Source of the DNA: Verrucomicrobiota bacterium JB024
GTDB lineage: Bacteria > Verrucomicrobiota > Verrucomicrobiia > Opitutales > Cerasicoccaceae
DNA length: 33,424 nt
Direction: 5' to 3'
Assembly: GCA_030673825.1 (NCBI GenBank)
Contig: JAUTCS010000039.1
Location: 1-33,424 of the forward strand
Positions 1-33,424 of this stretch are shown one piece after another. The notes under the pieces are model-generated. The model was given only the letters and a program-made list of their open reading frames with translations. It made no database searches and was not told the DNA's origin. Both the position numbers and the translations under genes were made by a program. How positions within the stretch are numbered: the stretch's first letter is position 1; every line of letters starts with the position of its first letter.

Positions 1-143
1 AGGTTCTTGTTTTTATCGTAAAATCTATTGATGGTGCTGATCCTGGTGGCCACCATTAATAGCCATCCTACAAATGTGCCCAAAAAGCCATATTTGTCCA
101 GATGGATAACTTTTGCCACCTCTTTAGCCGTAACCAAGCCCAT
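1..143 (-). CDS. Partial acyltransferase-like protein (N-terminus only)
   Basis: An ATG at 141-143 (minus strand) opens a frame with no stop to the window edge, giving 47 residues that begin MGLVTAKEVAKVIHLDKY and continue GFLGTFVGWLLMVATRIS. From memory this resembles the N-terminus of flavobacterial lysophospholipid-acyltransferase/hemolysin-type (PlsC-like) proteins, often found near aspartate kinase. The catalytic HxxxxD motif lies outside the window, so the product is an inference. It lies 77 bp downstream of the aspartate kinase stop on the same strand and could share its transcript. Confidence 0.62.
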   Translation of the reverse strand, partial: MGLVTAKEVAKVIHLDKYGFLGTFVGWLLMVATRISTINRFYDKNKN

Positions 144-220
144 AAAAATAATATTTAGCTACGGTAAAGATAGAAAATTAAGCCTATTGCCCTCAGCGAC
201 CCAATATTATCCCCAAAGGT

Positions 221-1471
221 TTATTTAACAACAAGTTGAACCGTTTCCTTGCCTCTTTGCTCCACCAATACGGATTTCCCATTCTGCAACGATTTGACCG
301 AATCACTGTTAAAATGACGTATGGTGTATAGGGAAACATCTTCGTGGCACACGACTTTGAACTTGCGTTTTAATTCTTCCAACAATGGCTGAAGCCCACG
401 GAACTTGTTGTCCAAGCAGACAGAGAAGCTAATGGCAGAATTCTGGATAAGATCTACCTTAAGTCGATGATCGTGGAAGAGCTTAAAAATTTCACTGATA
501 TTATCCTCAACAATAAAAGAAAAGTCGAGAGACGACAGTTTTAACAAAACCTGGTTCTTTTTTACAATAAAGCATGGGATCTTTGGCTCTATACCGTTCC
601 CTTTTCCAACTATGGTACCGTTATCCTTGGGCTTTACAAACGATTTAACCTGTAAGGGTATTTCTTTTCTTTGTAAAGGTTGCAGGGTTTTTGGATGAAT
701 TACAGAGGCCCCGTAAAAGGCAAGCTCAATAGCTTCGCGATACGAAATTTTTTCCAAGAGATGTGTTTCCTCAAAATTCCGGGGGTCCGCATTCAAAACC
801 CCGGGAACATCTTTCCAAATAGTCACCGATTCGGCATTAAGGCAATATGCCAAAATTGCTGCCGAGTAATCGGAACCTTCCCGGCCCAAGGTGGTTGTAA
901 AGTTATTGTCGTCGCTACCTAAAAAACCTTGGGTTATGTTCAATTTGGAGCGATCGACCAAAGAATCCACCTGTTCTTGGGTGCGCTCCCAGTTTACCTG
1001 TGCATCCCTATAATTGGTATCGGTTTTTATCAAAGTACGAACATCCAACCATGTATTGGCAATACCTATCTCATTTAAATAGGCACTCACTATTGTTGTA
1101 GACAATAATTCGCCATAGCAGACAACTTGATCGTACACGAATGCATATTTGGGTGATTTGTTCCAAGTTAAAAAACCTGTAACCTCATCGAACAACACTT
1201 TTAATTTCCCATATACCGGATGTTCTGGATTTTTAAACAAGTCCGATACAATGGTATGATGATACTCGATAACTTCTTGAATGGTCTCCTTTACATTTCT
1301 TTTATCGTTAAAATAGGATTCCACCACTTTTTCCATGGCATTGGTCATTTTTCCCATGGCCGATACCACTACCAAGGTATCCTTATGGCCAACCTCTTGC
1401 AATACGTTGACCAAGTTTTTTACCGCATCGGCATCTTTTACGGATGCTCCTCCAAACTTAAATATCCTCAT
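221..1471 (-). CDS. Aspartate kinase (monofunctional)
   Basis: It phosphorylates L-aspartate with ATP, the first step towards lysine, threonine, methionine and diaminopimelate, in the cytoplasm. The 416-residue protein has the amino-acid kinase signature KFGGASV (residues 5-11), the substrate loop LGREGSDYSAA (about 195-205) and WKDVPGVLNADPR (about 219-231). The last ~115 residues fit paired ACT regulatory domains. Length fits monofunctional LysC-type enzymes; no homoserine dehydrogenase domain is fused. The ATG at 1469-1471 is 25 bp after the stop of the GNAT gene, so the two are probably cotranscribed. The ACT region suggests feedback control, but the effector cannot be read from sequence. 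Confidence 0.95.
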   Translation of the reverse strand: MRIFKFGGASVKDADAVKNLVNVLQEVGHKDTLVVVSAMGKMTNAMEKVVESYFNDKRNVKETIQEVIEYHHTIVSDLFKNPEHPVYGKLKVLFDEVTGFLTWNKSPKYAFVYDQVVCYGELLSTTIVSAYLNEIGIANTWLDVRTLIKTDTNYRDAQVNWERTQEQVDSLVDRSKLNITQGFLGSDDNNFTTTLGREGSDYSAAILAYCLNAESVTIWKDVPGVLNADPRNFEETHLLEKISYREAIELAFYGASVIHPKTLQPLQRKEIPLQVKSFVKPKDNGTIVGKGNGIEPKIPCFIVKKNQVLLKLSSLDFSFIVEDNISEIFKLFHDHRLKVDLIQNSAISFSVCLDNKFRGLQPLLEELKRKFKVVCHEDVSLYTIRHFNSDSVKSLQNGKSVLVEQRGKETVQLVVK

Positions 1472-1496
1472 GTACTTTATCTTCTAGTTTTCTGGT

Positions 1497-1979
1497 CTAG
1501 TCCAGACGCTCCAAATAATTTTTGATTCCTTCTTCGTCCAAATGCACCACATCCCAATCCCGCAGTACATTGGCTCCTTTTTTCTCATAAAAATCGATGG
1601 CCGGTTCGTTCCAATCCAACACTTCCCAACTGATTCGTTTTACACCGAGTTCGGCCCCATACTTGACCACTTGATCTAATAATGCAGTTCCCAGTCCAGT
1701 TCCTCGCATATTCTCGGAAACAATAAGGTCCTCCAAATGGATTACGGGACCTTTCCAAGTAGAATACCTTGGGTACACCAATGCTATGCCGACAATTCCT
1801 TTTTCGGTTTCTGCAACAAAACATTGAAACATTTTTTGTTCACCAAAGCCATCCTTGATCAAATCGCCTTTGGTCACTTCTACAGCATCCGGTTCTTTCT
1901 CAAAATCAGCTAGTTCCTGCACCAAATTCAGTACCTGTTCCATATCCTCGATGCGAGCCTTCCTTATTGTATATTCCAT
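1497..1979 (-). CDS. GNAT-family N-acetyltransferase (diamine/SSAT-like)
   Basis: This is a 160-residue acetyl-CoA-dependent N-acetyltransferase. The acetyl-CoA loop is [11 protein letters not shown] (about 91-101), and the C-terminal signature [13 protein letters not shown] has the usual Tyr (about 131). The N-terminal [11 protein letters not shown] stretch is typical of the spermidine/spermine N1-acetyltransferase-like subgroup, so a polyamine or thialysine-type amine is the likeliest substrate; that is family inference. It is the first gene of a probable two-gene unit with aspartate kinase and is divergent from fructose-1,6-bisphosphatase. Confidence 0.9.
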
Positions 1980-1998
1980 AATTGTTACAAATAAAACT

Positions 1999-2006
1999 CA
2001 AAGTTA
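1999..2006 (-). promoter_or_regulatory. Candidate Bacteroidota -7 element for the GNAT/aspartate kinase unit
   Basis: On the minus strand TAACTTTG matches the Bacteroidota -7 consensus TAnnTTTG and lies about 20 nt before the GNAT start at 1979. I did not find a good TTG -33 element at the usual distance, so the call is tentative. Confidence 0.35.
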
Positions 2007-2038
2007 TAAAAATACACAATTAAAGATTCTCGAAAACG

Positions 2039-2067
2039 TTGTAGTTTCACAAAATGCCCGATATTTG
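2039..2067 (+). promoter_or_regulatory. Candidate Bacteroidota promoter for fructose-1,6-bisphosphatase
   Basis: TTG (2039-2041), an 18-nt spacer and GATATTTG (2060-2067) resemble the -33/-7 pair TTG-N19-TAnnTTTG with one mismatch. The fbp ATG follows 24 nt later. Confidence 0.35.
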
Positions 2068-2091
2068 TCCTTAAATAAAACATCCTTTCCT

Positions 2092-3099
2092 ATGTTTGAC
2101 AAACAACGGCTCACCATGGGTGAGTTCATCATCGCCAATCAAGAATCTTTTCAATACACTTCTGGGGAATTATCAAGACTGCTCAACGGTATTCGTTTAG
2201 CCGCCAAAGTAGTTAACCACGAAGTAAACAAGGCCGGTCTCGTGGACATTATCGGTGCTGCGGGAGAAACGAATATCCAAGGGGAAAATCAACAAAAATT
2301 GGATGTACTTGCCAACGAAAAATTTATAGAAACACTAAAGAATAGAGAAATAGTTTGTGGTATAGCGTCGGAGGAAGAGGACGACTTTATAAGCATAAAC
2401 AGTTTTGACAAACAACACCAGAACAAGTATGTGGTTCTTATAGATCCTTTGGACGGTTCTTCCAATATTGATGTAAATGTATCGGTCGGAACCATTTTTT
2501 CAATTTATAGAAGGGTAACTCCTGTGGGCACTCCGGTTACTTTGGAGGATTTTCTGCAACCCGGTAAAAACCAAATCGCTGCCGGTTACATAATTTATGG
2601 CACCTCTACCATGTACGTGTACACTACCGGACATGGGGTAAATGGATTTACCTTGAATCCTGCCCTTGGAACTTTTTACCTATCGCATCCCAACATGCAA
2701 TTCCCGGAAACAGGACAGATCTATTCTGTGAACGAGGGAAACTACATTCATTTTCCGCAAGGGGTTAAAGACTACATAAAATATTGCCAAATGGAAGAAG
2801 GCGACCGCCCATACACCTCAAGGTACATTGGCTCATTGGTTTCCGATTTTCACAGAAATATGATCAAAGGGGGAATTTATATGTACCCTAAAAGCAGCAA
2901 GGCGCACAACGGAAAGCTACGTTTATTGTACGAGTGCAATCCAATGGCGTTCTTGGCCGAACAAGCCAATGGCAAAGCAAGTGATGGCTTTAGAAGAATC
3001 ATGGACATCCAGCCCACGGAGTTGCACGAACGGGTACCATTTTTCTGTGGAAGTAAAAAAATGGTTGAAAAGGCAGAAGAATTTATGGCCAATTACTAG
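2092..3099 (+). CDS. fbp: Fructose-1,6-bisphosphatase class 1
   Basis: It hydrolyses fructose 1,6-bisphosphate to fructose 6-phosphate in gluconeogenesis. The metal-binding signature [11 protein letters not shown] lies at about residues 117-127, preceded by the acidic loop ASEEEDDF (about 92-99). The C-terminal active-site segment [19 protein letters not shown] is also present. The open frame extends upstream to 1855, but that part is antisense to the GNAT gene and unlike the family. Starting at the ATG at 2092 gives 335 residues, the usual length. The stop TAG overlaps the stop of the convergent TerB-like gene within a single CTAG. Confidence 0.96.
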
Positions 3100-3524
3100 C
3101 TATCTCTCTTCACCAATTCGTGATGATCCTCAAACGGAATTTTTCCGGTAAAAATCTTGATGGATTTATCGATGATGTTAGCAGCGGTCTTTGGAGAAAA
3201 GCCCAAGCCTACCGCATACTTTTCCACTATTCTTCGCTCTTCATCATCAATATCGTGATCGGAGAAAATAATTTGAAAAAATTCAAATAGCCTTTTGTAC
3301 CTCTTTTCACCACTGTGCGGAGTTTCGATAGGGTATTTATTTTCCTTCTTCATTACCTCCTTAAATTCCTGATCGCTGATATTTAGCTTAAAGGCAAACT
3401 TTTTAAGGACTTCCATTTCCTTCTCATTGATTTCTCCATCAACAGCAGCCAAACTTGCCAAAGTGGCAAAATGGGCCAGGTTTTTTCTTTTTTCCCCGTG
3501 CTCGTAAAGATCTAAAATTGGCAT
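3096..3524 (-). CDS. TerB-like (tellurite-resistance/DjlA N-terminal type) protein
   Basis: An all-helical acidic protein of about 142 residues. The segment [20 protein letters not shown] is typical of the TerB/DjlA-N fold, with a second acidic helix pair [18 protein letters not shown]. Cellular role is unknown; TerB-like domains are thought to bind metal or act as membrane-associated scaffolds. I chose the ATG at 3522-3524 ([10 protein letters not shown]) over 3545 because a -7 element (3543-3550) overlaps the upstream choice. It is divergent from the helicase, where exonuclease and ligase genes often sit in relatives. Confidence 0.75.
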
Positions 3525-3542
3525 ATCTGAAATTTTGTGGCA

Positions 3543-3550
3543 CAAATATA
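3543..3550 (-). promoter_or_regulatory. Candidate -7 element for the TerB-like gene
   Basis: Minus-strand TATATTTG is an exact match to TAnnTTTG and lies 19 nt before the ATG at 3524, the same spacing as before the GNAT and PdeM starts. Confidence 0.4.
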
Positions 3551-3622
3551 AATCTTATCGCAAAATTGAAGGCACAAACCCAGTAAAGAAATTCGTATTT
3601 TTCAATCCAAAGCATCTCACCA

Positions 3623-6085
3623 CTGAAAGAATCCGATCTGTTCCATATAGCCGAAAAATGGTTCCAAGAACAAACATGGCAGCCGTTCCCTTTTCAAAAA
3701 GAAACATGGAAAGCCTTTTTGAAGGGCAAGCACGGTCTGTTAAATGCCCCGACCGGAAGCGGAAAAACCTATGCCCTTTGGTTTCCGATCGTACTCAATT
3801 ACATCAAAAACAACCCAGAGTATAAAACCACGCACAAGAAAGGTCTAAAAGCTATCTGGATTACTCCATTGCGAGCGCTCTCGCAAGAAATCAAACAATC
3901 GGCAGAACGGATAACCCAAGACCTGGGCACACAAATGAGCGTCGGTATCCGAACCGGGGACACTTCGGCAAAGGATAGGGCAAAAATGAGGACCAACATG
4001 CCCGATCTTTTGATCACCACTCCCGAAAGCCTACAGCTTTTACTTTCATCCAAAGGGTACGCCAAAACTTTTAAAAACTGCTCTGCTATTGTGGTGGACG
4101 AATGGCACGAACTTTTGGGCACCAAACGAGGGGTGCAAATGGAACTGGGCATTTCCCGATTGAAAACCGTATGCAAGGCATTGCGTATTTGGGGCATATC
4201 GGCGACCATAGGTAATTTGGAACAAGCACGGGAAGTATTGTTGGGCCCTTCTACACCCGAACTAGACAATTCGATATTGGTAAAGGCAGACCTCAACAAA
4301 AAAATTACGGTAAAAAGTATTGTTCCCAAAGAAATGGAAACCTTCCCGTGGCGCGGACATTTAGGGTTGCATTTATTGGATGATGTGATACCCATTATCA
4401 AAAAAAGTAAGACCACGTTACTTTTTACCAACACCCGAAGCCAATGTGAAATCTGGTTTCAGAAAATATTGGAAAAATATCCCGAATTCGCCGGGGAAAT
4501 AGCCATGCACCATGGCAGCATAAACAAAGAAACCAGACTCTGGGTAGAGCAGGCCATTCGGAACGAGAGTCTCAAAGCCGTTGTCTGTACATCGAGTTTG
4601 GACCTTGGCGTGGATTTTGCCCCTGTGGAAACGGTGATCCAGATTGGAGGACCAAAAGGGGTTGCCCGTTTTTTGCAACGCGCCGGGCGGAGCGGACATC
4701 GACCTGGAAAAGAAAGTGTTATCCATTTTTTGCCCACGCACGCGATTGAACTGGTGGAGGCTTCGGCCATGCAAAAAGCAGTACTCAACAATGCTGTGGA
4801 AGATCGCATCCCTTACCTGAACAGTTTTGATGTCCTACTTCAATATTTGACCACCTTGGCCGTTTCCGATGGGTTTTATCCTGATGAAATCTATCCCGAG
4901 ATACAACAAACGTTCTGTTATCAGAGCCTATCGGAAGAACAGTGGCAGTGGCTACTCAATTTTTTGGTAATGGGCAGCCAAAGCCTAAAGAACTACGACG
5001 AATACAAAAAAGTTGAAATTGAAACAGATGATAAATTTAAAGTAAACAGTAGGGCCGTTGCCATGCGCCATCGTTTCCAGATCGGAACCATTGTTGGGGA
5101 CGCAACCATATCGGTCCGCTATCAAAAGGGAGGGTATATCGGTAGTATTGAAGAGTACTTTATCTCCAAATTGAGTCCTGGGGATGTTTTTACCTTTGCT
5201 GGTCGAAATTTGGAGTTTATTCGAATAAAGGGGATGTCGGCACACGTGCGCAATTCCAAAAAAAAGACCAACAAAGTACCCAGTTGGATGGGTGGAAGAC
5301 TGAGCTTTTCAGCAAAAATGTCCGAACTATTACGGCAAGAACTCTACACGGCCGAGTTGGAGTCTTCAAAACAATCGGAGGAAATCCGGGCATTGCAGTC
5401 AATGTTCACCAAACAAAGGGAAGAAAGTCTAGTGCCCCAACCGCATCAATTTTTGATAGAAACCTTTGAGACACGAGATGGTCATCATCACATGTTTTAT
5501 CCGTTCGAAGGCAGGGCCATCCACGAAGGCATGAGCAGCCTGTTGGCATACCGTATCAGTTTATTGAGCCCGATTACCTGCTCCCTGGCCTTTAACGACT
5601 ACGGTTTTGAATTACTTTCGGACAGGAAAATCGATATTCAGGAGATTCTGGACAATAACCTTTTTACGCCGGAACATATGTTGTCCGATCTTCAAAAGAG
5701 TTTAAATTCCAACGAAATGGCGCGTAGAAAATTTAGAGATATTGCCGTAATCAGCGGGATGGTCTTTACGGGCTACCCCGATAAAGGAATAAAAATGAAA
5801 CACCTGCAAAGTAGTTCAGAATTACTTTTTGATGTTTTCCGTGATTTTGAAGACGATAATTTGTTGTACCAACAAGCTTTCACCGAAACTTTTGAGCATC
5901 AATTGGAGGAAGGAAGATTACGTTTGGCACTGGAACGGATCACACAGCAAAAAATAGTCTGGAAAAAATGTTCTCAACCAACACCACTATCTTTCCCGAT
6001 CATTACAGATCGGTTGCGGGAGAAACTGTCCAATGAAAAATTGGCAGATCGCATTAAACGAATGGTGGAGAAATTGACCAAATAA
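3623..6085 (+). CDS. Ligase-associated DEXH-box DNA helicase (Lhr-like)
   Basis: A superfamily 2 ATP-dependent helicase of the Lhr-related group that travels with an ATP-dependent DNA ligase, an exonuclease and PdeM, presumably in DNA repair. Motifs: Walker A APTGSGKT just after 3740, DEWH box VVVDEWHELLG (about 4092-4125), ISATIGN (about 4196-4217), and motif VI QRAGRSGHRPG (about 4676-4710). The only ATG/GTG/TTG start in frame is a TTG at 3719, inside the conserved N-terminal region. The frame is open back to 3587 and encodes FHIAEKWFQEQTW plus PFPFQKETW, both conserved. I place the start at CTG 3623, about 20 nt after a -7-like TATTTTTC (3596-3603). This gives about 820 residues, the expected length. 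Start is uncertain; identity is not. Confidence 0.9.
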   Translation: MKESDLFHIAEKWFQEQTWQPFPFQKETWKAFLKGKHGLLNAPTGSGKTYALWFPIVLNYIKNNPEYKTTHKKGLKAIWITPLRALSQEIKQSAERITQDLGTQMSVGIRTGDTSAKDRAKMRTNMPDLLITTPESLQLLLSSKGYAKTFKNCSAIVVDEWHELLGTKRGVQMELGISRLKTVCKALRIWGISATIGNLEQAREVLLGPSTPELDNSILVKADLNKKITVKSIVPKEMETFPWRGHLGLHLLDDVIPIIKKSKTTLLFTNTRSQCEIWFQKILEKYPEFAGEIAMHHGSINKETRLWVEQAIRNESLKAVVCTSSLDLGVDFAPVETVIQIGGPKGVARFLQRAGRSGHRPGKESVIHFLPTHAIELVEASAMQKAVLNNAVEDRIPYLNSFDVLLQYLTTLAVSDGFYPDEIYPEIQQTFCYQSLSEEQWQWLLNFLVMGSQSLKNYDEYKKVEIETDDKFKVNSRAVAMRHRFQIGTIVGDATISVRYQKGGYIGSIEEYFISKLSPGDVFTFAGRNLEFIRIKGMSAHVRNSKKKTNKVPSWMGGRLSFSAKMSELLRQELYTAELESSKQSEEIRALQSMFTKQREESLVPQPHQFLIETFETRDGHHHMFYPFEGRAIHEGMSSLLAYRISLLSPITCSLAFNDYGFELLSDRKIDIQEILDNNLFTPEHMLSDLQKSLNSNEMARRKFRDIAVISGMVFTGYPDKGIKMKHLQSSSELLFDVFRDFEDDNLLYQQAFTETFEHQLEEGRLRLALERITQQKIVWKKCSQPTPLSFPIITDRLREKLSNEKLADRIKRMVEKLTK

Positions 6086-6209
6086 AGTTCGAACGCACAC
6101 ACTTGGTTCGGGCATTTAGCGTAGTCGAAGAGGCAAAACACCGCATCTGATCGATAATTTTTAAAATAGTTTCCGCACTTGCCCCTCTCGTTTCAAAATT
6201 ACAATTGGT

Positions 6210-6217
6210 TAAATTTG
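6210..6217 (+). promoter_or_regulatory. Candidate -7 element for pdeM
   Basis: TAAATTTG matches TAnnTTTG and lies 13 nt before the PdeM ATG. The 145-bp gap after the helicase stop therefore seems to carry a separate promoter. Confidence 0.35.
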
Positions 6218-6230
6218 TTGCTTCGTTAGA

Positions 6231-6863
6231 ATGATCGAAAAAATCCAAATACAAGGCCAAGAATTTCATCTACACCCTTTGGGTGGATTGTTTTGGGTTA
6301 AAAAATCCATATTGCTGATCAGTGATGTACATTTGGGGAAAGTATCCCATTTCCGGAAATTTGGCGCCGCCGTTCCTCGAAAGGCAATCCATAAAAATTT
6401 TATCCTTTTAGATCAAATCGTGGCCGATTTTCAACCCTTTCAAATCTGTTTTTTAGGAGACCTCTTCCATTCTTCGTTGAACAAGGAGTGGGAGTTGTTT
6501 GAAAACTGGGTGGGCAAAACACCTTCGGAAGTTGTGCTGATTACAGGAAACCACGATATTATCGCCCCCGAAAAATTTCAAAACGTGAATGTCTCCCAAT
6601 TTCAGGAGCTTGCCATTGATTCGTTTTTTTTTACACACCATCCGGAAGATCGCAAAGGGCTCTTTAATTTTTGTGGACATATACATCCTTCCATAAAACT
6701 AAAAGGGCCAGGGCGGGATTACGTTAAGTTGCCTTGCTTTTTTAAATCCGAGAACAAAATGATATTGCCCGCTTTTGGACAATTTACTGGAACCCATGAC
6801 CTAAAACCTAAAAAAAGCGATGATGTTTACGCCATTGCAGACGACTGTATATTCAAAATTTGA
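6231..6863 (+). CDS. pdeM: Ligase-associated metallophosphoesterase PdeM
   Basis: A calcineurin-like two-metal phosphoesterase of 210 residues that accompanies the ligase-associated helicase. All metal-binding motifs are visible in order: SDVHLG (31-36), GDLFH (76-80), GNHD (106-109), THHPE (135-139) and GHIHP (149-153). The protein is probably cytoplasmic, as no signal peptide is seen. Natural substrate is uncertain; DNA ends or cyclic phosphodiesters are suggested for the family. The ATG at 6231 gives the usual length. Confidence 0.9.
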   Translation: MIEKIQIQGQEFHLHPLGGLFWVKKSILLISDVHLGKVSHFRKFGAAVPRKAIHKNFILLDQIVADFQPFQICFLGDLFHSSLNKEWELFENWVGKTPSEVVLITGNHDIIAPEKFQNVNVSQFQELAIDSFFFTHHPEDRKGLFNFCGHIHPSIKLKGPGRDYVKLPCFFKSENKMILPAFGQFTGTHDLKPKKSDDVYAIADDCIFKI

Positions 6864-6910
6864 AAACCTCATCAAAAAATTACCAAAGTAGTGGGTAAGC
6901 TATTAAAGGA

Positions 6911-8395
6911 TCAGAACCTTTTTTTATGCACTTGCAATCCGTCTTCATCATAATAACGCCATGTGCCCACCTGTTCATCTTTACGAAAACGACCGCGAAT
7001 TTTTCTTGTACCGTTGGTGTAGAACTCTTCGTACTTGCCATGTTTTAAACCATCCTTGAGCTCCACTTGGAACCTAACGTTTCCGTTGTTGTATTTTTTT
7101 ATAAATGTCTTCGCATTTAAATCGTTCGGATATATGGGTTTCAGGTTAAAAATCGCATCTGTTGTCTGGGCCGTCGCAGTATTTTTACTTTTAGATGTTA
7201 CATTGTTACCGGTTATTGGCAAGACCTGGTGTTTTTTCACCTTCTCAACATCCTCATACTTTAGCACCAATCTATTTTCGAACAAATCATCTTTCGGCGA
7301 TAATTGTAATCCAATCTGCGGAAAACAAATGATAAAATCCTTGTTCTTGCGCATTTTCTGTTTGGTTGGCGCATCGGCCAAAGCATACATATTATCAAAC
7401 AGCAAAGGCACATTACTATATATAAAAACAGAAGATTCGGGATCGAATTTCTGATTAAAATCAATGTACTCACTGGAAGTTGCCAAAATTTCGCCTTCGG
7501 TAACCTTTTCTATTATGCCCTTTAGGGTATTTGGGCTATCGCTAAAGACCACATAATCATCGATTTGGGTAAAGTAGGGTTTATCGAACTCATTAAATCT
7601 GCCGCCCAGTAGCATTTTAAAAAATCCTTTGATGGACAAAAAATTAATTTCGTACCCCTTGTAATTTACAGCTTTGAACTTTACCGGTGTTTTTTTACGG
7701 ACCTGCTCCACCACAAAATCCAAGTTGGTCCTAGCCTTATCGGCATTATTGGTTTTAAGGACAAGCGCTAGATCATTTTTGCCTTTGGAAATGTGAGATT
7801 GTATCTGAAGTAAGGCCACCTCGTCCCCTATCCAGCTCACAAAATTTTCCTTGATATCGATTTTTAGGAACTTTTCCACTTTGGCTATGCCCTTTTGGTA
7901 ACTTTCAAACTGTTCGGGGTCGCTTTGCTGGACCATCTCAAAATTTTTGTAGAACTCGGAAAAGCTATCAAAACCATAGCTAACATAAAGTGCTGTGCTA
8001 TTTGGGGCAACTTCTGGTATGGAACGTTTTGCCTTTCCCGATTTTTGAAGTGCCTTAAGGTAATATTCGTTTACCGAACTTATGTTGGTATATCCGTTGG
8101 CGGTCAGTGTGCTGTTCTTGTCCAAATCAAAATAGAACCCAGAAAACAAAAAGTTTTCACTTACGCGCATTACCCAGTCGGAGGGCCGGTCGGAATACAT
8201 TTTAATGTAATCGTCAAAAAAATGGTATTGTACATACAACCGGAACAGGTCCTCGTGCCCGACTTTTTGATTGATTTCCAAAAAATTGAGGTTTCGCCCC
8301 AACACCGGCTCCATATATTGATCTATTGAAGCTTCTACCAAAGTGTGCGTGTAAGAGGCCACCACCTGACCGGTCTCATCTTTCAACCCCAGTAT
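6911..8395 (-). CDS. 5'-truncated DUF3352-like protein with C-terminal MORN-like repeats
   Basis: About 490 residues of a flavobacterial protein are present. The central part (for example SWIGDEVALLQIQ and YVVFSDSPNTLKGIIEK) resembles DUF3352-type extracytoplasmic proteins. The C-terminus (GNVRFQVELKDGLKHGKYEE, then YTNGTRKIRGRF and GTWRYYDEDG) forms MORN/YwqK-like repeats. The 5' end is missing: past about 8345-8398 the frame runs into the antisense strand of a GC-rich PEP-CTERM gene, so an apparent start at 8878 is spurious. Function is unknown. The gene is cut by the junction described separately. Confidence 0.7.
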   Translation of the reverse strand: MLGLKDETGQVVASYTHTLVEASIDQYMEPVLGRNLNFLEINQKVGHEDLFRLYVQYHFFDDYIKMYSDRPSDWVMRVSENFLFSGFYFDLDKNSTLTANGYTNISSVNEYYLKALQKSGKAKRSIPEVAPNSTALYVSYGFDSFSEFYKNFEMVQQSDPEQFESYQKGIAKVEKFLKIDIKENFVSWIGDEVALLQIQSHISKGKNDLALVLKTNNADKARTNLDFVVEQVRKKTPVKFKAVNYKGYEINFLSIKGFFKMLLGGRFNEFDKPYFTQIDDYVVFSDSPNTLKGIIEKVTEGEILATSSEYIDFNQKFDPESSVFIYSNVPLLFDNMYALADAPTKQKMRKNKDFIICFPQIGLQLSPKDDLFENRLVLKYEDVEKVKKHQVLPITGNNVTSKSKNTATAQTTDAIFNLKPIYPNDLNAKTFIKKYNNGNVRFQVELKDGLKHGKYEEFYTNGTRKIRGRFRKDEQVGTWRYYDEDGLQVHKKRF

Positions 8396-8398
8396 CCT
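8345..8398. other. Junction between AT-rich flavobacterial and GC-rich verrucomicrobial sequence
   Basis: To the left a minus-strand flavobacterial gene loses its N-terminus. To the right a PEP-CTERM gene begins at its ATG (8399) with no Shine-Dalgarno or promoter-like sequence. Base composition, codon use and gene families change abruptly here. The exact breakpoint cannot be fixed by eye. Confidence 0.85.
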
Positions 8399-9328
8399 AT
8401 GAAACGTTCCCTCCTGATCTCCTTCGTATCCGCGGCGGCCCTGACCGCCTCCACCTATGCCAGTACGGTTGATTTTTCGGCCTATTCCACACCGACCACA
8501 TTGGGAACCAGCGTTGTCGTGGGCAGCGGCGTATCCAGCGCTGTTCTTCAAGATGCCAACGGCGACACCGAGTTCACCTATTATCAGGGGTTCGGTGGTG
8601 GCACTGGTAACACCGCCACGTACAGCGGTGTTGTCCTGGGCTCTGGCGGCAGCAGCAACTACCTGCAGATGCAGGCCGTAAAAAATGACGGTGGTGGTCA
8701 GCCCTGGGGACAGGTCAGCACGACGAACGCCTTTAATACGGCACTCAGCGGTCAGGCGATGTCCTGGAACAGCACATTTACCATCTCGCAAATCGGCACC
8801 AACGGCTCGCTGAAGACCGGGCTCTTCGCCTACAGCGCGATGGGATCGGCTGGTAACTATACCCTGGCTCAGGACCAACAGACGCCTGGCAGTGCTATCG
8901 GGCTCTCAGTGGTTTTTCAGTCCAACAGTGAACTGCAGATCATGCGGACAAACTCGGATGGTAGCCGCGAATTCTGGAGCGGATCGAGCTGGGGCGGCAG
9001 CCTGGGGACCTATACCTGGGCGGAGGACGTGGGCTACAGTGTCACGCTGACCGCCGATTCGACGACGGATATCCTGACCCTTGAAGTCGTCAGGCTCGAC
9101 ACGGACACCGTGGTTGCCAGTGCCCAGACGGACCTGGCAGATCAGAACGCCTCTGCTTACGATGGTGGGCTGCGCTTCAGCACCGGTAATCTTGAGAGCA
9201 ATTCGTCCAGTGGTTGGACCCTGGATCTGGACAGCGTCTCGGCCAACGTCATCCCCGAACCTGCCGAGTACAGCCTCATGCTGGGCGCGGTGATCGTTCT
9301 GGGCGCGTGGCTGCGCCGCCGTCGCTAA
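8399..9328 (+). CDS. PEP-CTERM sorting-domain secreted protein
   Basis: A 309-residue exported protein of unknown function. It has a signal peptide MKRSLLISFVSAAALTASTYA, then a Gly/Ser/Thr-rich domain of beta-sandwich type (VDFSAYSTP...SVSANV). The C-terminal sorting signal is IPEPAEYSLMLGAVIVLGAW followed by a basic RRRR tail. In this family the exosortase system cleaves the tail and the protein goes to the surface or matrix. The frame is open from 8345, but the signal peptide starts at ATG 8399 and the upstream sequence belongs to the other genome. Confidence 0.88.
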   Translation: MKRSLLISFVSAAALTASTYASTVDFSAYSTPTTLGTSVVVGSGVSSAVLQDANGDTEFTYYQGFGGGTGNTATYSGVVLGSGGSSNYLQMQAVKNDGGGQPWGQVSTTNAFNTALSGQAMSWNSTFTISQIGTNGSLKTGLFAYSAMGSAGNYTLAQDQQTPGSAIGLSVVFQSNSELQIMRTNSDGSREFWSGSSWGGSLGTYTWAEDVGYSVTLTADSTTDILTLEVVRLDTDTVVASAQTDLADQNASAYDGGLRFSTGNLESNSSSGWTLDLDSVSANVIPEPAEYSLMLGAVIVLGAWLRRRR

Positions 9329-9410
9329 GCTCGCCCCGGCGAGGATGATTGCCTGAGCGATATAACTTCACCCTTTTCCGAAAAAGCAAGACAGACGTCA
9401 TTACACTTAA

Positions 9411-9473
9411 AAATCCGCTCCCAGTTGGTCGTTTTATTAGGGATGAGATAACGATCGGCAAAGGAGCGGATTT
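9411..9473. repeat. Long-loop inverted repeat with terminal T-run
   Basis: AAATCCGCTCC (9411-9421) pairs perfectly with GGAGCGGATTT (9463-9473) across a 41-nt loop, followed by more T. It could terminate the PEP-CTERM transcript or be a small structured RNA or element end. It lies in a 350-bp gene-free stretch (9329-9678). Confidence 0.5.
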
Positions 9474-9592
9474 TTTTGTGCCGGTATTTCAGGGGAGGCG
9501 CGATACTCACCTCTGCTCGGGAGGGATGCTGAGCGTAAGATGGACAAAGCCGGATGGGTCTTCGCTGGGCAAGGTTCCTGCGAAGGCGTACC

Positions 9593-9628
9593 AAAAAGAC
9601 CCGGAAGCGCCAGCTTCCGGGTCTTTTT
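9593..9628. terminator. Bidirectional Rho-independent terminator
   Basis: A perfect 16-bp stem (AAAAAGACCCGGAAGC and its complement) closes a GCCA loop, with an A-run on one side and a T-run on the other. It can stop transcription from both directions and lies 50 bp after the end of the minus-strand glycoside-hydrolase-like gene. Confidence 0.9.
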
Positions 9629-9678
9629 GTGTACCCGAGTGGCTGATCAGCTTGACCAACCTTTGGGCGAAAGTGCCT

Positions 9679-12153
9679 TTAGGGCTTGGCTATCGAGATG
9701 AGGAGCGTGCCGGTCACCTTGCGCTTGGTTTCCAGAATCAGACCCGACGGGGAATCGATCCGGTGCAGCGGTTCATCCTCACCCGTGATGTACGGGTGGA
9801 GCGGGTTCATCCACAGACTGACGGGGCCGCAGCCCGCAGGCGGGAAGAAGCGTACGGTAGCGTCTTTAAGGCCGTGGACGAACATCCGCCGGGCGACGCC
9901 GATCTGCCCGGGCAGGTGCTCGATGTGCTTGAGCCAGCCTTCGGGCTGATCAACGAAGACGCGGCACTCGTTGCGCCACCCGCGCGGCTGACGGTAGGTG
10001 CTGGAGCCGTCGTGGAGTTGGGTTTCCTTGCCCAGTAGCAGCGGTGCGCCCCAGGGCGTCCGCAGGGACAGGCCGACGGTTTCGTCGGGCGTGCAGCCGG
10101 AGAAGAACCAGCCGTTGTCGTGGCGGTGGACCGTCAAGAGGCTGTTGCGCTGGGTGACGTGGCGGTTGACGAGTAAGGTGCTGTTGCTCTGGGTGAAGCT
10201 CTCGCCGCCGAATCCGATTTGCCAGCCGAACTCGGCCAGGAGTCGCCGCACGGCCTTGGCGAACGCGAAGACCGTGCCCGGTTCGTCGGGGTAGGGCAGG
10301 TGCCCGCCCTTGGCCAAGGTCATGGGCAGCGGCGCGCGCAGCCACTTCAGGCGTCCGCCTGCGGCCGAGGTGTAGCTGGCGGCGAGGGCGCGGCTCTGGT
10401 CGCCCTGATGGGCGCTCATGCCGAGGTCGGCGTCGTCTGCGGCGATCTCCTTGAGTGCTCCGGCTGACATGAGCGGGCGGTGCTCGTAGCGCAGGCACTC
10501 CTCACCCGGTTGGCCGAGGTTGTCCAGCTCGGGCAGGGGTGCGTCTAGAGAAATTTGCATCTCGCCATGGAGGGGGGAGGCGGTGGACAGGCGCAGTTTT
10601 TCGCGTAGGCGGGGGGCGTCGGTTAGCGGCCCGTACACGATGGCGTCGCCGCCGGCCTCGATCCAGTCGATCAGCCGCCGGTCAGCCTCGTCGTTGTAAG
10701 GGGCGGGACTGAGCAGGATGCGCCCGGCGATCGCGCTGCGGGTGTCGCCGTCGAGCGCGTTAAAGGCACGGGTGCTGATGACGGTGTTGACGGGGACGCC
10801 CGCGTTGATGATTTCGCGCACGAACCAGTCGTTGTGAAAGAGTCGCTCAGGGCGGCGGGGTTCCTCGAACATCGCGTCGTGCAGCTCGTCGAAGGGGTAG
10901 AGCCACACAATTGGCCCGGCGGCGTCGGCCCGCTCGCGCCAGGCCCGCTGAAGGTGTGGGGTGGACTCGGCGGGCACGGCCTCGGGCATCTCCCCGTAGC
11001 TGTCGTCGAGGGTGAGGAGGTTAAGCGTGTCGGGGGCGTGGGCGCGGCCCTGGTCGTCGATTCGCGCCGTAGCCATGGGCATGTAAATGTCGTGCGGCTG
11101 GCGTTCGTAGCGGTCGAGCCACGGGCTGTTCAGCCACCACGGGTCGTGGATGTAGAAGCGGAAGGGGATGGGCTTGCCTGCGGGGCCTTCGACGATGCGG
11201 CTGAGGTACCCGGCGATCTCGATTCCGAAGTCGCTGTTAATCGAGGCCCATGGCGAGTTGGGCGGCGGGGCGAAGTCGAACCCGCCCGCGTAGAGCTCGC
11301 GTAGCGGGGTGGCGTCGCTGGCCAGGTCGGTGCCGGTCCCGAGGTTGGTCCCCCGGGTCTCGATACCCAGCTCGGGGCACTCGCGGCGGAAGTCCCGCCA
11401 AAAGCCCAGAATGCGGTCGCGGGTGGCGGGGGCTTGCTCGGGATAAAAATGCTCGCCGTCGAAAAGCGGCCCCTCCGACATCCATGTCTCCATCCCGAAG
11501 CCGAAGCCGTTGGAGAACCAGATGTAGTCCAGCCCGATGTCCTGCGCCAGGCACTGGAACTGCCGCCCAAGGAACGTGCCGAGGCTTGTGCCGGACGGGA
11601 TCCCTTCCGGGAAGCCTGCGTACGCGCGCTTATCCCCATCGAGCACGCCGTAGCAGCAGACGAAGCTGGCGCTGCCCATGGTATGGGCCAGGCAGATTTC
11701 GCGGTGGCGTTTAAACTTGAACTCAGAGGGGGCGAACTCGCCGCCGGGGTCGAAGGCCAGCCCGATGCGTGGCTTCAGCCCGGTACTGGCAATGGCCTCC
11801 CGCAGGCATTCGACGATCTCCGCCAGCCGGCGGTAGGTCAGCAGTTCGGCTCCTGGCCGGTACAGGTTGCGGCTGGTGTGCAGGCTCTTGCGCTCGGGGT
11901 CGCCGGGCAAATTGAAGTCCGGGTGCGGGTTGGCATTGCCGATGTACCGTGCCCACTCCATCGGGCTGTCCAACTGGCCGTCGTACTCCAGAATCTCCGA
12001 GCCGTCGGAGGCCCACAGGAGAAAGGACAGTTCCTCGGCATGGCGGATGAGAAGCTTCCAGTCCTCGATGATGTGGAGGCAGAGCTCGGCGGTGGCCGCC
12101 CGGTCGAGGCCGTAAAAGGGTTTTAGGGAAATTTCGAGATTCAGTGCTTTCAT
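9679..12153 (-). CDS. Large glycoside-hydrolase-like protein, family not recognised
   Basis: An 824-residue protein without an evident signal peptide. It begins MKALNLEISLKPFYGLD, followed by a long region of barrel-like character with Trp/Tyr- and Asp-rich segments (RFYIHDPWWLNSPWLDRYE, LTLDDSYGEMPEA). A middle segment, DRRLIDWIEAGGDAIVYGPL, resembles the trimerisation domain of GH42-type galactosidases. The C-terminal part looks like beta-sandwich. I infer a carbohydrate-active enzyme but cannot name the family, substrate or catalytic residues. The frame is open to 12237, but ATG 12151-12153 gives the clean N-terminus. A bidirectional terminator follows. Confidence 0.72.
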   Translation of the reverse strand: MKALNLEISLKPFYGLDRAATAELCLHIIEDWKLLIRHAEELSFLLWASDGSEILEYDGQLDSPMEWARYIGNANPHPDFNLPGDPERKSLHTSRNLYRPGAELLTYRRLAEIVECLREAIASTGLKPRIGLAFDPGGEFAPSEFKFKRHREICLAHTMGSASFVCCYGVLDGDKRAYAGFPEGIPSGTSLGTFLGRQFQCLAQDIGLDYIWFSNGFGFGMETWMSEGPLFDGEHFYPEQAPATRDRILGFWRDFRRECPELGIETRGTNLGTGTDLASDATPLRELYAGGFDFAPPPNSPWASINSDFGIEIAGYLSRIVEGPAGKPIPFRFYIHDPWWLNSPWLDRYERQPHDIYMPMATARIDDQGRAHAPDTLNLLTLDDSYGEMPEAVPAESTPHLQRAWRERADAAGPIVWLYPFDELHDAMFEEPRRPERLFHNDWFVREIINAGVPVNTVISTRAFNALDGDTRSAIAGRILLSPAPYNDEADRRLIDWIEAGGDAIVYGPLTDAPRLREKLRLSTASPLHGEMQISLDAPLPELDNLGQPGEECLRYEHRPLMSAGALKEIAADDADLGMSAHQGDQSRALAASYTSAAGGRLKWLRAPLPMTLAKGGHLPYPDEPGTVFAFAKAVRRLLAEFGWQIGFGGESFTQSNSTLLVNRHVTQRNSLLTVHRHDNGWFFSGCTPDETVGLSLRTPWGAPLLLGKETQLHDGSSTYRQPRGWRNECRVFVDQPEGWLKHIEHLPGQIGVARRMFVHGLKDATVRFFPPAGCGPVSLWMNPLHPYITGEDEPLHRIDSPSGLILETKRKVTGTLLISIAKP

Positions 12154-12193
12154 GTGATCAGTATATCTAAACGAGGGGAGTTCTGTTTTATAA

Positions 12194-12207
12194 AGCCAGT
12201 ATTGGCT
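12194..12207. promoter_or_regulatory. Candidate operator upstream of the glycoside-hydrolase-like gene
   Basis: AGCCA-GTAT-TGGCT is a perfect inverted repeat about 40 bp before the minus-strand start at 12153, a suitable position for a repressor. The regulator is unknown. Confidence 0.35.
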
Positions 12208-12421
12208 GAAAATAACGACTAAGCAAATAAAAATCATTCATCGATGTCACTTTTTGGTGTGTGGCGGGAAGTCTTGTTCATTTATGCTGAACGAATGGAT
12301 CGGGGCAGAAGCGTCAGTACGCAAGTGAAGCGACCGGGCGTTTAGTTTACTCATGGGGCGAGACCGCATCTCATTAGCAAATGCCAGTTATGAGCATCTC
12401 ATGCTGGAACATTGTAGGCCC

Positions 12422-13177: not shown

Positions 13178-13687
13178 ATGGCCGAGGCCCCTGACACTCC
13201 CGCGGATGCCCTGATCGCCCAGGCCTACGCCTACTGGCGGACCAAGGGCAGCTCTGTCACCGTTGTGCGCAAGATCATTTGCGACGTCGCCCTGCGCGCC
13301 ACGGACGCCTTTGACGCGGAAACGCTTCTGGCGCGTTGCCGCCGCGAGGACAGCCAGATTTCCCTCTCCACGGTGTACCGCACGCTTGGGCACCTCGTTG
13401 AGGCGCAAGTGCTCTACGAGGTGCAGGGGGTGGGCGAGAAAAAGTGTTACGCCCCCGCGCTCACGCCCCAGGCCGGTCAGAGCCACGTTGTCTGCCAGGA
13501 CTGCAAGCAGGTCTTCCCGCTGGAGGACCCCTGCCTCGTCTTGCGGGAAGGTGCGCTTGCCCGCCAGCAGGGATTCAGCCCGAAGAACATCAGCCTGCGC
13601 TTGGAGGCGAGTTGCGACCAGTTGACTCAACTCGGCATCTGCGACCGCAAGAAGGACGAGGCGAAGGGCAAGAAAACCGACGCCTGA
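13178..13687 (+). CDS. Fur-family transcriptional regulator
   Basis: A 169-residue DNA-binding metalloregulator. The N-terminal winged helix contains the recognition helix ISLSTVYRTLGHLVEAQVLY (61-80). The structural zinc site has HVVCQDCKQVF (Cys 106, 109) and a second pair CDQLTQLGIC (Cys 146, 155). The usual HxHxxC stretch is reduced to one His before the first Cys, so whether it senses iron, zinc or peroxide cannot be told. The open frame extends upstream, but the ATG at 13178 matches the family N-terminus and couples to the preceding stop. Confidence 0.88.
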   Translation: MAEAPDTPADALIAQAYAYWRTKGSSVTVVRKIICDVALRATDAFDAETLLARCRREDSQISLSTVYRTLGHLVEAQVLYEVQGVGEKKCYAPALTPQAGQSHVVCQDCKQVFPLEDPCLVLREGALARQQGFSPKNISLRLEASCDQLTQLGICDRKKDEAKGKKTDA

Positions 13688-13805
13688 AGTGAGATCTTCG
13701 AAGAAGCGATAAGGCGTTGGCTCATCAGGAGGGCGTTCTTTTTTTGTGCAGACAGGGGGATTGGCGGGGGCTATGCTGGCTGCACTGCATTAGCCTGCTA
13801 CCGCC

Positions 13806-14651
13806 ATGCTCTACTTCAGCGACGACGAAATCGACCAGCTCATCCGCGAGGACCTGCCGTACCTTGACCTGACCTCGACTCTGCTCGGGGTCGGCTCCCA
13901 ACCGGGGCGTATCCGCTTTCGGGCCCGCCACCACACGGTGGTTTGCGCGACCGAGGAGGCTCGTCGTATTCTGGAGAAACTCGGGCTGCGCGTGGGTACG
14001 TGCCTGCCTTCGGGCGAGACCGTCGAGCCCGGTGATTTATTGCTGGAGGCCGAGGGGCCGGCGGCGGCCATCCATGCCGCCTGGCGGGTCACGGTCAACC
14101 TCTTGGAGCACGCCTCGGGCGTGGCCACACGCACGCGGGCCATGGTGGACAAGGTCCACGCCGTCAACCCCGCCGCCCAGGTCGTGACGACGCGCAAGAG
14201 CATTCCCTTCGCCCGCAAGCTCACGATCAAGGGCATCGTGGTGGGTGGGGCACTGCCGCACCGGCTCGGCTTGTCCGAGAGCGTGCTGGTCTTCGACGAG
14301 CACTTGCGCTTCACCGGCGGGCGGGCGGCCTTTTTGGAAAGTATACCGCAGTTGAAAACCCGTCTGGGCGAAAAGCTCATCGCCGCCGAAGCGCACGATG
14401 TCGGGGCTGCGTTGGAGTTGGCGCGGGGTGGGGTGGACCTTGTCCAGCTCGACAAGCTCAGCCCCGCCGACACCCGGCGCGTGGTCGAGGCCGTCCGTGC
14501 CGGGGGCCTGCCCGCCAAGGTCACCATCGCCGGTGGTGTCAACCTCGACAATTGCGCCGACTACGCTGCCACCGGGGTGGATATGCTCGTGACGAGCGCC
14601 CTGTACTTCGGCAAGCCCGCCGACATCAAAGCCGAGATCGAGGCGCTCTGA
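13806..14651 (+). CDS. modD: ModD-like pyrophosphorylase (NadC homologue)
   Basis: A 281-residue member of the quinolinate phosphoribosyltransferase fold. The opening EDLPYLDLTSTLLGVG and the segment TTRKSIPFARKLTIKGIVVG are the ModD signatures, distinguishing it from true NadC. The C-terminal AGGVNLDNCADYAATGVDML is the phosphate-binding end of the barrel. ModD genes often accompany molybdate transport genes, but the enzyme's reaction is not established. No molybdate transporter is present here; the upstream neighbour is a Fur-family regulator. Confidence 0.83.
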   Translation: MLYFSDDEIDQLIREDLPYLDLTSTLLGVGSQPGRIRFRARHHTVVCATEEARRILEKLGLRVGTCLPSGETVEPGDLLLEAEGPAAAIHAAWRVTVNLLEHASGVATRTRAMVDKVHAVNPAAQVVTTRKSIPFARKLTIKGIVVGGALPHRLGLSESVLVFDEHLRFTGGRAAFLESIPQLKTRLGEKLIAAEAHDVGAALELARGGVDLVQLDKLSPADTRRVVEAVRAGGLPAKVTIAGGVNLDNCADYAATGVDMLVTSALYFGKPADIKAEIEAL

Positions 14652-33073: not shown

Positions 33074-33277
33074 TCAGTGATTATTGCGCCGTGAAACTTC
33101 GTCGCGCCAGAGCTTGCGGGCTACCGGCGTCAGCTCACTCGGCTTGATCCACATCAGTTCTTTCTCGGGTACCCGCCGGTAGGTTTCACGCAGGGTGTCC
33201 TCGCGGTAGTGCTGGTTTTTTTGTGGCGAAACATTGCTTTTGGAAGCGACTTCGTTTGTATCAACCGCGGATTCCAA
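33074..33277 (-). CDS. Short hypothetical frame, possibly a gene remnant
   Basis: 67 residues from a TTG at 33277, ending KELMWIKPSELTPVARKLWR DEVSRRNNH. No ATG lies near the 5' end, and the IS transposase tail sits directly upstream. It could be the 3' remnant of a gene cut by that insertion sequence. Not recognised. Confidence 0.4.
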   Translation of the reverse strand: MESAVDTNEVASKSNVSPQKNQHYREDTLRETYRRVPEKELMWIKPSELTPVARKLWRDEVSRRNNH

Positions 33278-33313
33278 CTTCTAAGGAATCATTTTTGTGC
33301 TGGGTTGAGGTGG

Positions 33314-33424
33314 TCAAGCTGCGAGGTGTAGTTTGAGGTTGTTGGGTGAAAGGACGCATAGGGTTTTGCGTGGGCGTTGGTTGAGTTGGGCTTCGATGTG
33401 GGCGAGCCTAGGCTCGCCCACATC
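33314..33424 (-). mobile_element. IS30-like transposase C-terminus (partial)
   Basis: The minus-strand frame is open to the window edge and ends with TGA (33314-33316), giving 36 residues. LAHIEAQLNQRPRKTL is the conserved LNxRPRKxL end of IS30-family DDE transposases. The rest of the element lies outside. The family is recognised from this single motif. The outer IS end should lie within 33262-33313, but I could not define the terminal repeat. Confidence 0.7.
33395..33424. repeat. 30-bp perfect palindrome at the window edge
   Basis: The sequence is its own reverse complement, centred on CCTAGG at 33409/33410, with no loop. It lies inside the transposase frame at the very end of the window, where a fold-back assembly end is a likely cause. 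Confidence 0.9.

Follow-up and report, generated by a model that had tools for sequence, protein, structure and literature searches.

The window, which is the whole of contig C39 (33,424 bp) in a genome bin of 4.60 Mb and 163 contigs, is almost certainly an inter-species chimeric contig formed as an assembly artefact. This reading is preferred because each side has its true continuation elsewhere, the flavobacterial side in the related genome G059 and the host side in contig C119 of the same metagenome-assembled genome (MAG). The MAG is 95.14% complete and 1.99% contaminated, values at which the usual quality limits would be passed. The features are listed in Table 1.

Table 1. Features on the two sides of the joint in C39, and two further seams in the MAG
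Feature	Position	Strand	Basis
Foreign arm, from the chromosome of a Muricauda/Flagellimonas-group flavobacterium	1–8364		~0.8% divergence from G059
Aspartate kinase (foreign)	221–1471	−	PF00696, 3.6e-44; TIGR00657, 3.9e-79, above cut-off
GNAT acetyltransferase (foreign)	1497–1979	−	PF00583, 1.1e-20
Class I fructose-1,6-bisphosphatase (FBPase; foreign)	1855–3099	+	PF00316, 4e-78
Lhr-type DEAD/DEAH helicase (foreign)	3719–6085	+	PF19306, PF08494, PF00270
Metallophosphoesterase (foreign)	6231–6863	+	PF00149, 1.6e-7
DUF3352-like gene, ~484 of 660 codons, N-terminal part removed by the joint	6911–8364	−	PF11832, 2.2e-15; longer relatives
Joint read as false, blunt	8364–8365		8364 follows G059, not C119; 8365 follows C119, not G059
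Host arm, the MAG's own genome DNA	8365–33424		GC and tetranucleotide profile C119-like; G001-collinear block
99-bp block equal to the first 99 bases of C119, reversed	8365–8463		Exact identity; interpreted as a k = 99 node
PEP-CTERM-type protein P0002 (presumed label), host MAG, 309 aa, intact	8399–9328	+	34-bp native leader; tandem paralogue on C119
Probable second chimera, C36 (L111)	1–873 vs 874–972		874–972 is the start of C81, 99 bp exact
Possible third chimera, C72 (L146)	13207–13325 vs 13326–14243		13207–13325 is the start of C114, 119 bp exact

Composition and gene content of the two arms

The GC content is 0.414 to the left of the joint and 0.624 to the right, and the tetranucleotide profile switches at the joint. 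Four 2-kb blocks in 1–8000 correlate with G059 at 0.92–0.94 and with the host contig C119 below 0, whereas 8365–10364 correlates with C119 at 0.84 and with G059 at −0.20. Among 1,632 2-kb windows at 1-kb steps, taken from 119 of the 163 contigs (the first 20 kb only of the larger ones, four N-containing windows being excluded), only eight are below 46% GC, and all of them lie at the start of C39. The preliminary description, made from the letters alone, had set an AT-rich arm with Bacteroidota-type genes against a GC-rich arm with sulfatase and PEP-CTERM genes. Composition, Pfam families, and the likeness of the left arm to G059 bear out this division, the PEP-CTERM label being presumed from a motif. 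The claim of "−7" elements on the left is weak, with two sites there against 0.9 expected (none against 0.3 on the right).

The right arm contains a sulfatase, a nadC-type QRPTase, a beta-lactamase-family protein with a weak PEP-CTERM motif, and other families detected with Pfam. The block at 13.8–17.9 kb is collinear with G001, a genome of the same genus, with protein identities of 78–87%. The 852-aa protein encoded at 9679–12237 belongs to no Pfam family at E 0.001. It is present in three copies in the MAG (C39, C15, and C115), and matches are found in five of the 53 other genomes searched (G001, G005, G007, G008, and G009). As for the ends of the contig, positions 1–200 have no second match elsewhere in the MAG, and the sole MAG match of 33225–33424 is C88, with 90% identity. 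The resemblance between the final 124 bp (33301–33424) and the end of C88 is likewise 90%, and the last 30 bp form a palindrome that matches itself on the opposite strand.

Flavobacterial source of the left arm

All 8364 of the 8364 bp in the left arm align on one G059 contig (C1, 3.73 Mb) with 99.22% identity, 65 mismatches, and no gaps. The agreement breaks off at 8365, with 31 of the following 100 bases being equal in an ungapped comparison, which is near chance. Judging from this gapless, full-length alignment and the loss of agreement at 8365, 1–8364 is an ordinary chromosome stretch of a marine-type flavobacterial strain near G059. In the genus of G055, matches to 6800–8364 are present in 64 of 71 genomes, and G059 alone matches at 99% over the full length.

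The DUF3352-like gene next to the joint has its reading frame cut there. Relatives of its product are found at 28 loci, 26 close and two more distant. The close loci are mostly titled Muricauda, Allomuricauda, or Flagellimonas, the three others being titled Algicola, Flavobacteriaceae, and Bacteroidia. The preliminary description had stated that this gene lacks its N-terminus and had proposed searching for the missing part. The longer N-terminus is present in all 26 close loci (L024 itself ends at a contig end) and absent from the window; gauged on L009, the loss amounts to ~176 of 660 residues. DNA alignments to the 26 flavobacterial loci (L007–L032) end at 8359–8369, and beyond 8364 the G059 contig runs on into the missing part. 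The DUF3352 gene of G059 (L153) has an in-frame stop in its N-terminal part, where the relatives read ...PVESW..., possibly owing to gene decay in that genome or to a sequencing error.

In 22 of the 26 related loci, the helicase, metallophosphoesterase, and DUF3352 genes follow the same order, the latter two being separated by additional DNA. Relative to these loci, ~5 kb is absent from the window between the metallophosphoesterase and DUF3352 genes. In L009, the counterpart of the absent part is, as we take it, an mfd-like gene and a serine-hydrolase-like gene, and the mfd identity is supported by PF03461. An rRNA operon was considered as the content of this part and rejected, Rfam being blank on L007 9500–18000. 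The mfd gene lies near the DUF3352 gene in three tested relatives (G054, G055, and G072) and is absent at window positions 6864–6910. G059 shows the same gap, and its mfd gene is ~1.16 Mb distant on the same contig; the displacement of mfd is a real relocation in the species of G059. A second misjoin at this gap is ruled out, because G059 is also without the part at that place.

SusD gives no match in the bin, whereas two flavobacterial genomes related to the left arm give 25 and 16. The contrast in this single marker suggests that the left arm stands alone in the bin as a foreign piece and is not a portion of a flavobacterial genome, with no sign of broad flavobacterial contamination. The 27,975 bp that follow on in G059 as the native continuation have no match in the part of the MAG that was read (119 of the 163 contigs, the larger ones by their first 20 kb).

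The joint and its host continuation

The preliminary description had two genomes meeting at a single point within 8300–8420, and the alignments to G059 and C119 fix that point at 8364|8365. At 8364, the window and G059 have A where C119 has T; at 8365, the window and C119 have C where G059 has A. No bases are common to both parents across the joint, and the break falls in mid-frame. A 17-mer across the joint is found in five of 197 loci, all five being from contig C39, and a 27-mer across it in none of the viral contigs. No integrase or transposase family is detected in the 28 ORFs scanned (Pfam, E 0.001) at the one border seen, in agreement with the earlier observation of no integrase or IS at this point, and no tRNA was found. 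The left arm has no match among 72,556 plasmid records (megablast), nor does 8200–8540 among 50,697 phage records (blastn).

The first 99 bases of C119 (124,176 bp), read on the other strand, are identical to 8365–8463 of the window. Past this block, C119 differs from the window, with 23 of 100 bases equal, and holds the end of a paralogue of P0002 (54% identity) in tandem arrangement. C119 terminates 21 codons into the P0002 gene, and C39 alone in the MAG carries the remainder. C119, reversed, is the true left neighbor of 8365, because the exact 99-bp overlap runs into the P0002 gene, which only C39 continues in the MAG. C119 displays the host site uninterrupted, without the insert. The earlier claim that the right-hand gene had lost its whole leader up to the ATG does not hold, as the 34 bp upstream of the ATG (8365–8398) are native and match C119. 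P0002 has no Pfam match; we assume it to be of the PEP-CTERM type from a motif in its C-terminal letters.

Synteny in host relatives was also considered as proof of the adjacency of C119 and C39 and was of no help. The gene order across C119 and C39 is not seen in these relatives. G001 conserves the nadC block, yet the 60 kb read there has no match to any ORF in the initial 20 kb of C119. P0002 has weak matches in three of four host relatives and none in G001.

Trace of the assembler and two further seams

MEGAHIT usually runs through k = 21, 29, 39, 59, 79, 99, 119, and 141, while k in SPAdes stops at 127. Overlaps of contig ends were searched in 119 of the 163 contigs, the larger ones by their first 20 kb only, giving 170 usable ends. 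Twelve pairs of these ends overlap each other reciprocally, end to end, by exactly 141 bp. Six end-to-interior overlaps of 60–135 bp are also found, three of which equal a k value (99, 99, and 119) and three of which do not (71, 98, and 108). The chance figure of 0.001 for three k-value overlaps in six is post hoc and omits a cluster of 136–140-bp repeat overlaps. In a passage of PMC10914622, a published MEGAHIT run has the k list given above, and contig ends are described as overlapping by maxK in MEGAHIT and metaSPAdes. Since the 141-bp end overlaps match this published list, in which 99 is an intermediate k, the assembler was likely MEGAHIT with a maxK of 141. The exact 99-bp contig-end overlap between C119 and C39 is an assembler fingerprint.

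The other two k-value overlaps lie in C36 and C72 (Table 1). In C36, positions 1–873 have a GC content of 0.439 against 0.61 and encode a signal peptidase I severed at the seam. When C81 and C36 are rejoined, a stop-to-stop frame of 581 aa is obtained, compared with 339 in the assembled C36. This seam is probably another false join. In C72, the DNA beyond 13325 has a GC content of 0.605 and holds a fragment whose MFS match is sub-threshold (E 0.0096), as well as an ORF presumably having a Tat-like signal. At the seam between C114 and C72, one gene ends and an intact 471-aa ORF then begins; we take this ORF to be glucuronate isomerase. Rejoining C114 and C72 was rejected as evidence by itself, as only an antisense frame of 529 codons was obtained. 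The C72 seam is possibly another false join, with less certainty than that in C36.

All three k-value end-to-interior overlaps in the MAG thus lie at seams with a foreign-looking side or a severed frame, C39 being well supported, C36 strong, and C72 weak. We tentatively propose, with slightly less than even confidence, that an exact end-to-interior overlap of an intermediate k (99 or 119) in multi-k assemblies of the MEGAHIT type may mark an inter-species false join, which could be detected from contigs alone, without reads or taxonomy. Among the matches listed in a shallow literature search, no title concerns the use of intermediate-k end-to-interior overlaps to recognize chimeras, a statement about those titles and not a claim of absence from print.

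Discussion

The two sides of C39 come from different organisms, judging from the identity to G059 on the left and from the host composition and G001-collinear block on the right. Each side also has its native continuation elsewhere from the same point, G059 past 8364 and C119 up to 8365. Misassembly was favored over gene transfer in the preliminary description, and the two continuations together with the 99-bp overlap support that preference. We would refine it with respect to the seed. Because the joint is blunt, with no bases common to the parents, it could hardly be produced by a k-mer graph alone, and a chimeric read or library molecule is probably the likelier origin.

The following course of events is the likeliest. 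A chimeric read or library molecule, or a local-assembly step of the assembler, would join the two DNAs without homology. The 99-mer at 8365–8463 would then gain two predecessors in the k = 99 graph, which would be why C119 halts there, at precisely 99 bases beyond the joint. For lack of spanning reads, the true branch to C119 would be dropped at k = 119 and 141, and the false branch would survive to the final contig. The binner would then place the hybrid contig with the host, because three quarters of C39 is host DNA.

A variant of the artefact reading has no chimeric molecule, the false link being made by the local-assembly or contig-extension step of the assembler itself. We consider this variant unlikely, though deserving some weight. 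The presence of three seams with the k-value signature in one MAG is in its favor, as is one mock-community benchmark, a section of which reports 22.15 chimeric contigs per genome for megahit and 2.63 for SPAdes (PMC11261854). However, a blunt joint without common bases would be hard to derive from shared k-mers alone. A real insertion polymorphism, in which only some members of the host population have the flavobacterial DNA and C119 stems from the others, is very improbable. It would yield intact and interrupted sites, C119 showing the intact one, and presumably a fork at the same 99-mer. However, it requires a homology-free insertion without a mobile element, and it leaves unexplained the two further k-value seams (99 and 119), of which that in C36 lies next to an AT-rich piece and that in C72 next to a piece of ordinary GC content. 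Least credible of all, to a degree that we scarcely entertain it, is that at least 8.4 kb of a flavobacterial chromosome recently entered the host genome by horizontal transfer: 99% identity would be expected from a recent event as well, and the left border of the insert would be invisible because C39 begins inside the foreign DNA, but on C119 the site is intact and has the same 99 bases, the searches described above gave no mobile-element family, tRNA, plasmid match, or phage match, the composition is unadjusted to the host, a gene is severed in mid-frame at the break, and the overlap length is an assembler k.

On the reading of C39 as an inter-species chimera, the left-arm genes should not be attributed to the host genome, because the left arm was joined falsely in metagenome assembly. 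Otherwise, a flavobacterial FBPase, which is a gluconeogenesis enzyme, an aspartate kinase, and an Lhr-type helicase would wrongly be counted among the functions of the MAG. To conclude that FBPase was gained by gene transfer would be wrong, since the single PF00316 match in the MAG lies inside the foreign arm and none of the nine family relatives of the host match this family, which covers class I only. The k-value overlap test may serve to screen other MAGs.

Window positions 1–8364 match G059 in sequence and the loci L007–L032 in part in gene content and order, all of these being chromosomes of the Muricauda/Flagellimonas group, but C39 ceases to be flavobacterial at 8365. C39 resembles the inter-reference chimeric contigs of short-read metagenome assemblies, as they are described in part of PMC11261854, in that one contig contains two genomes with a single breakpoint and no biology there. 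Unlike the chimeric contigs in that description, C39 has both true continuations available, and the length of the overlap suggests an intermediate k and not the final one. The rejoining of contigs by maxK end overlaps in COBRA, as outlined in PMC10914622, likewise treats exact overlaps of an assembler k as graph adjacency, and the 12 pairs with 141-bp overlaps in the MAG are of that kind. In contrast to the overlaps outlined there, the one between C119 and C39 is end-to-interior and 99 bp long, and here it is the sign of a false route through the other contig.
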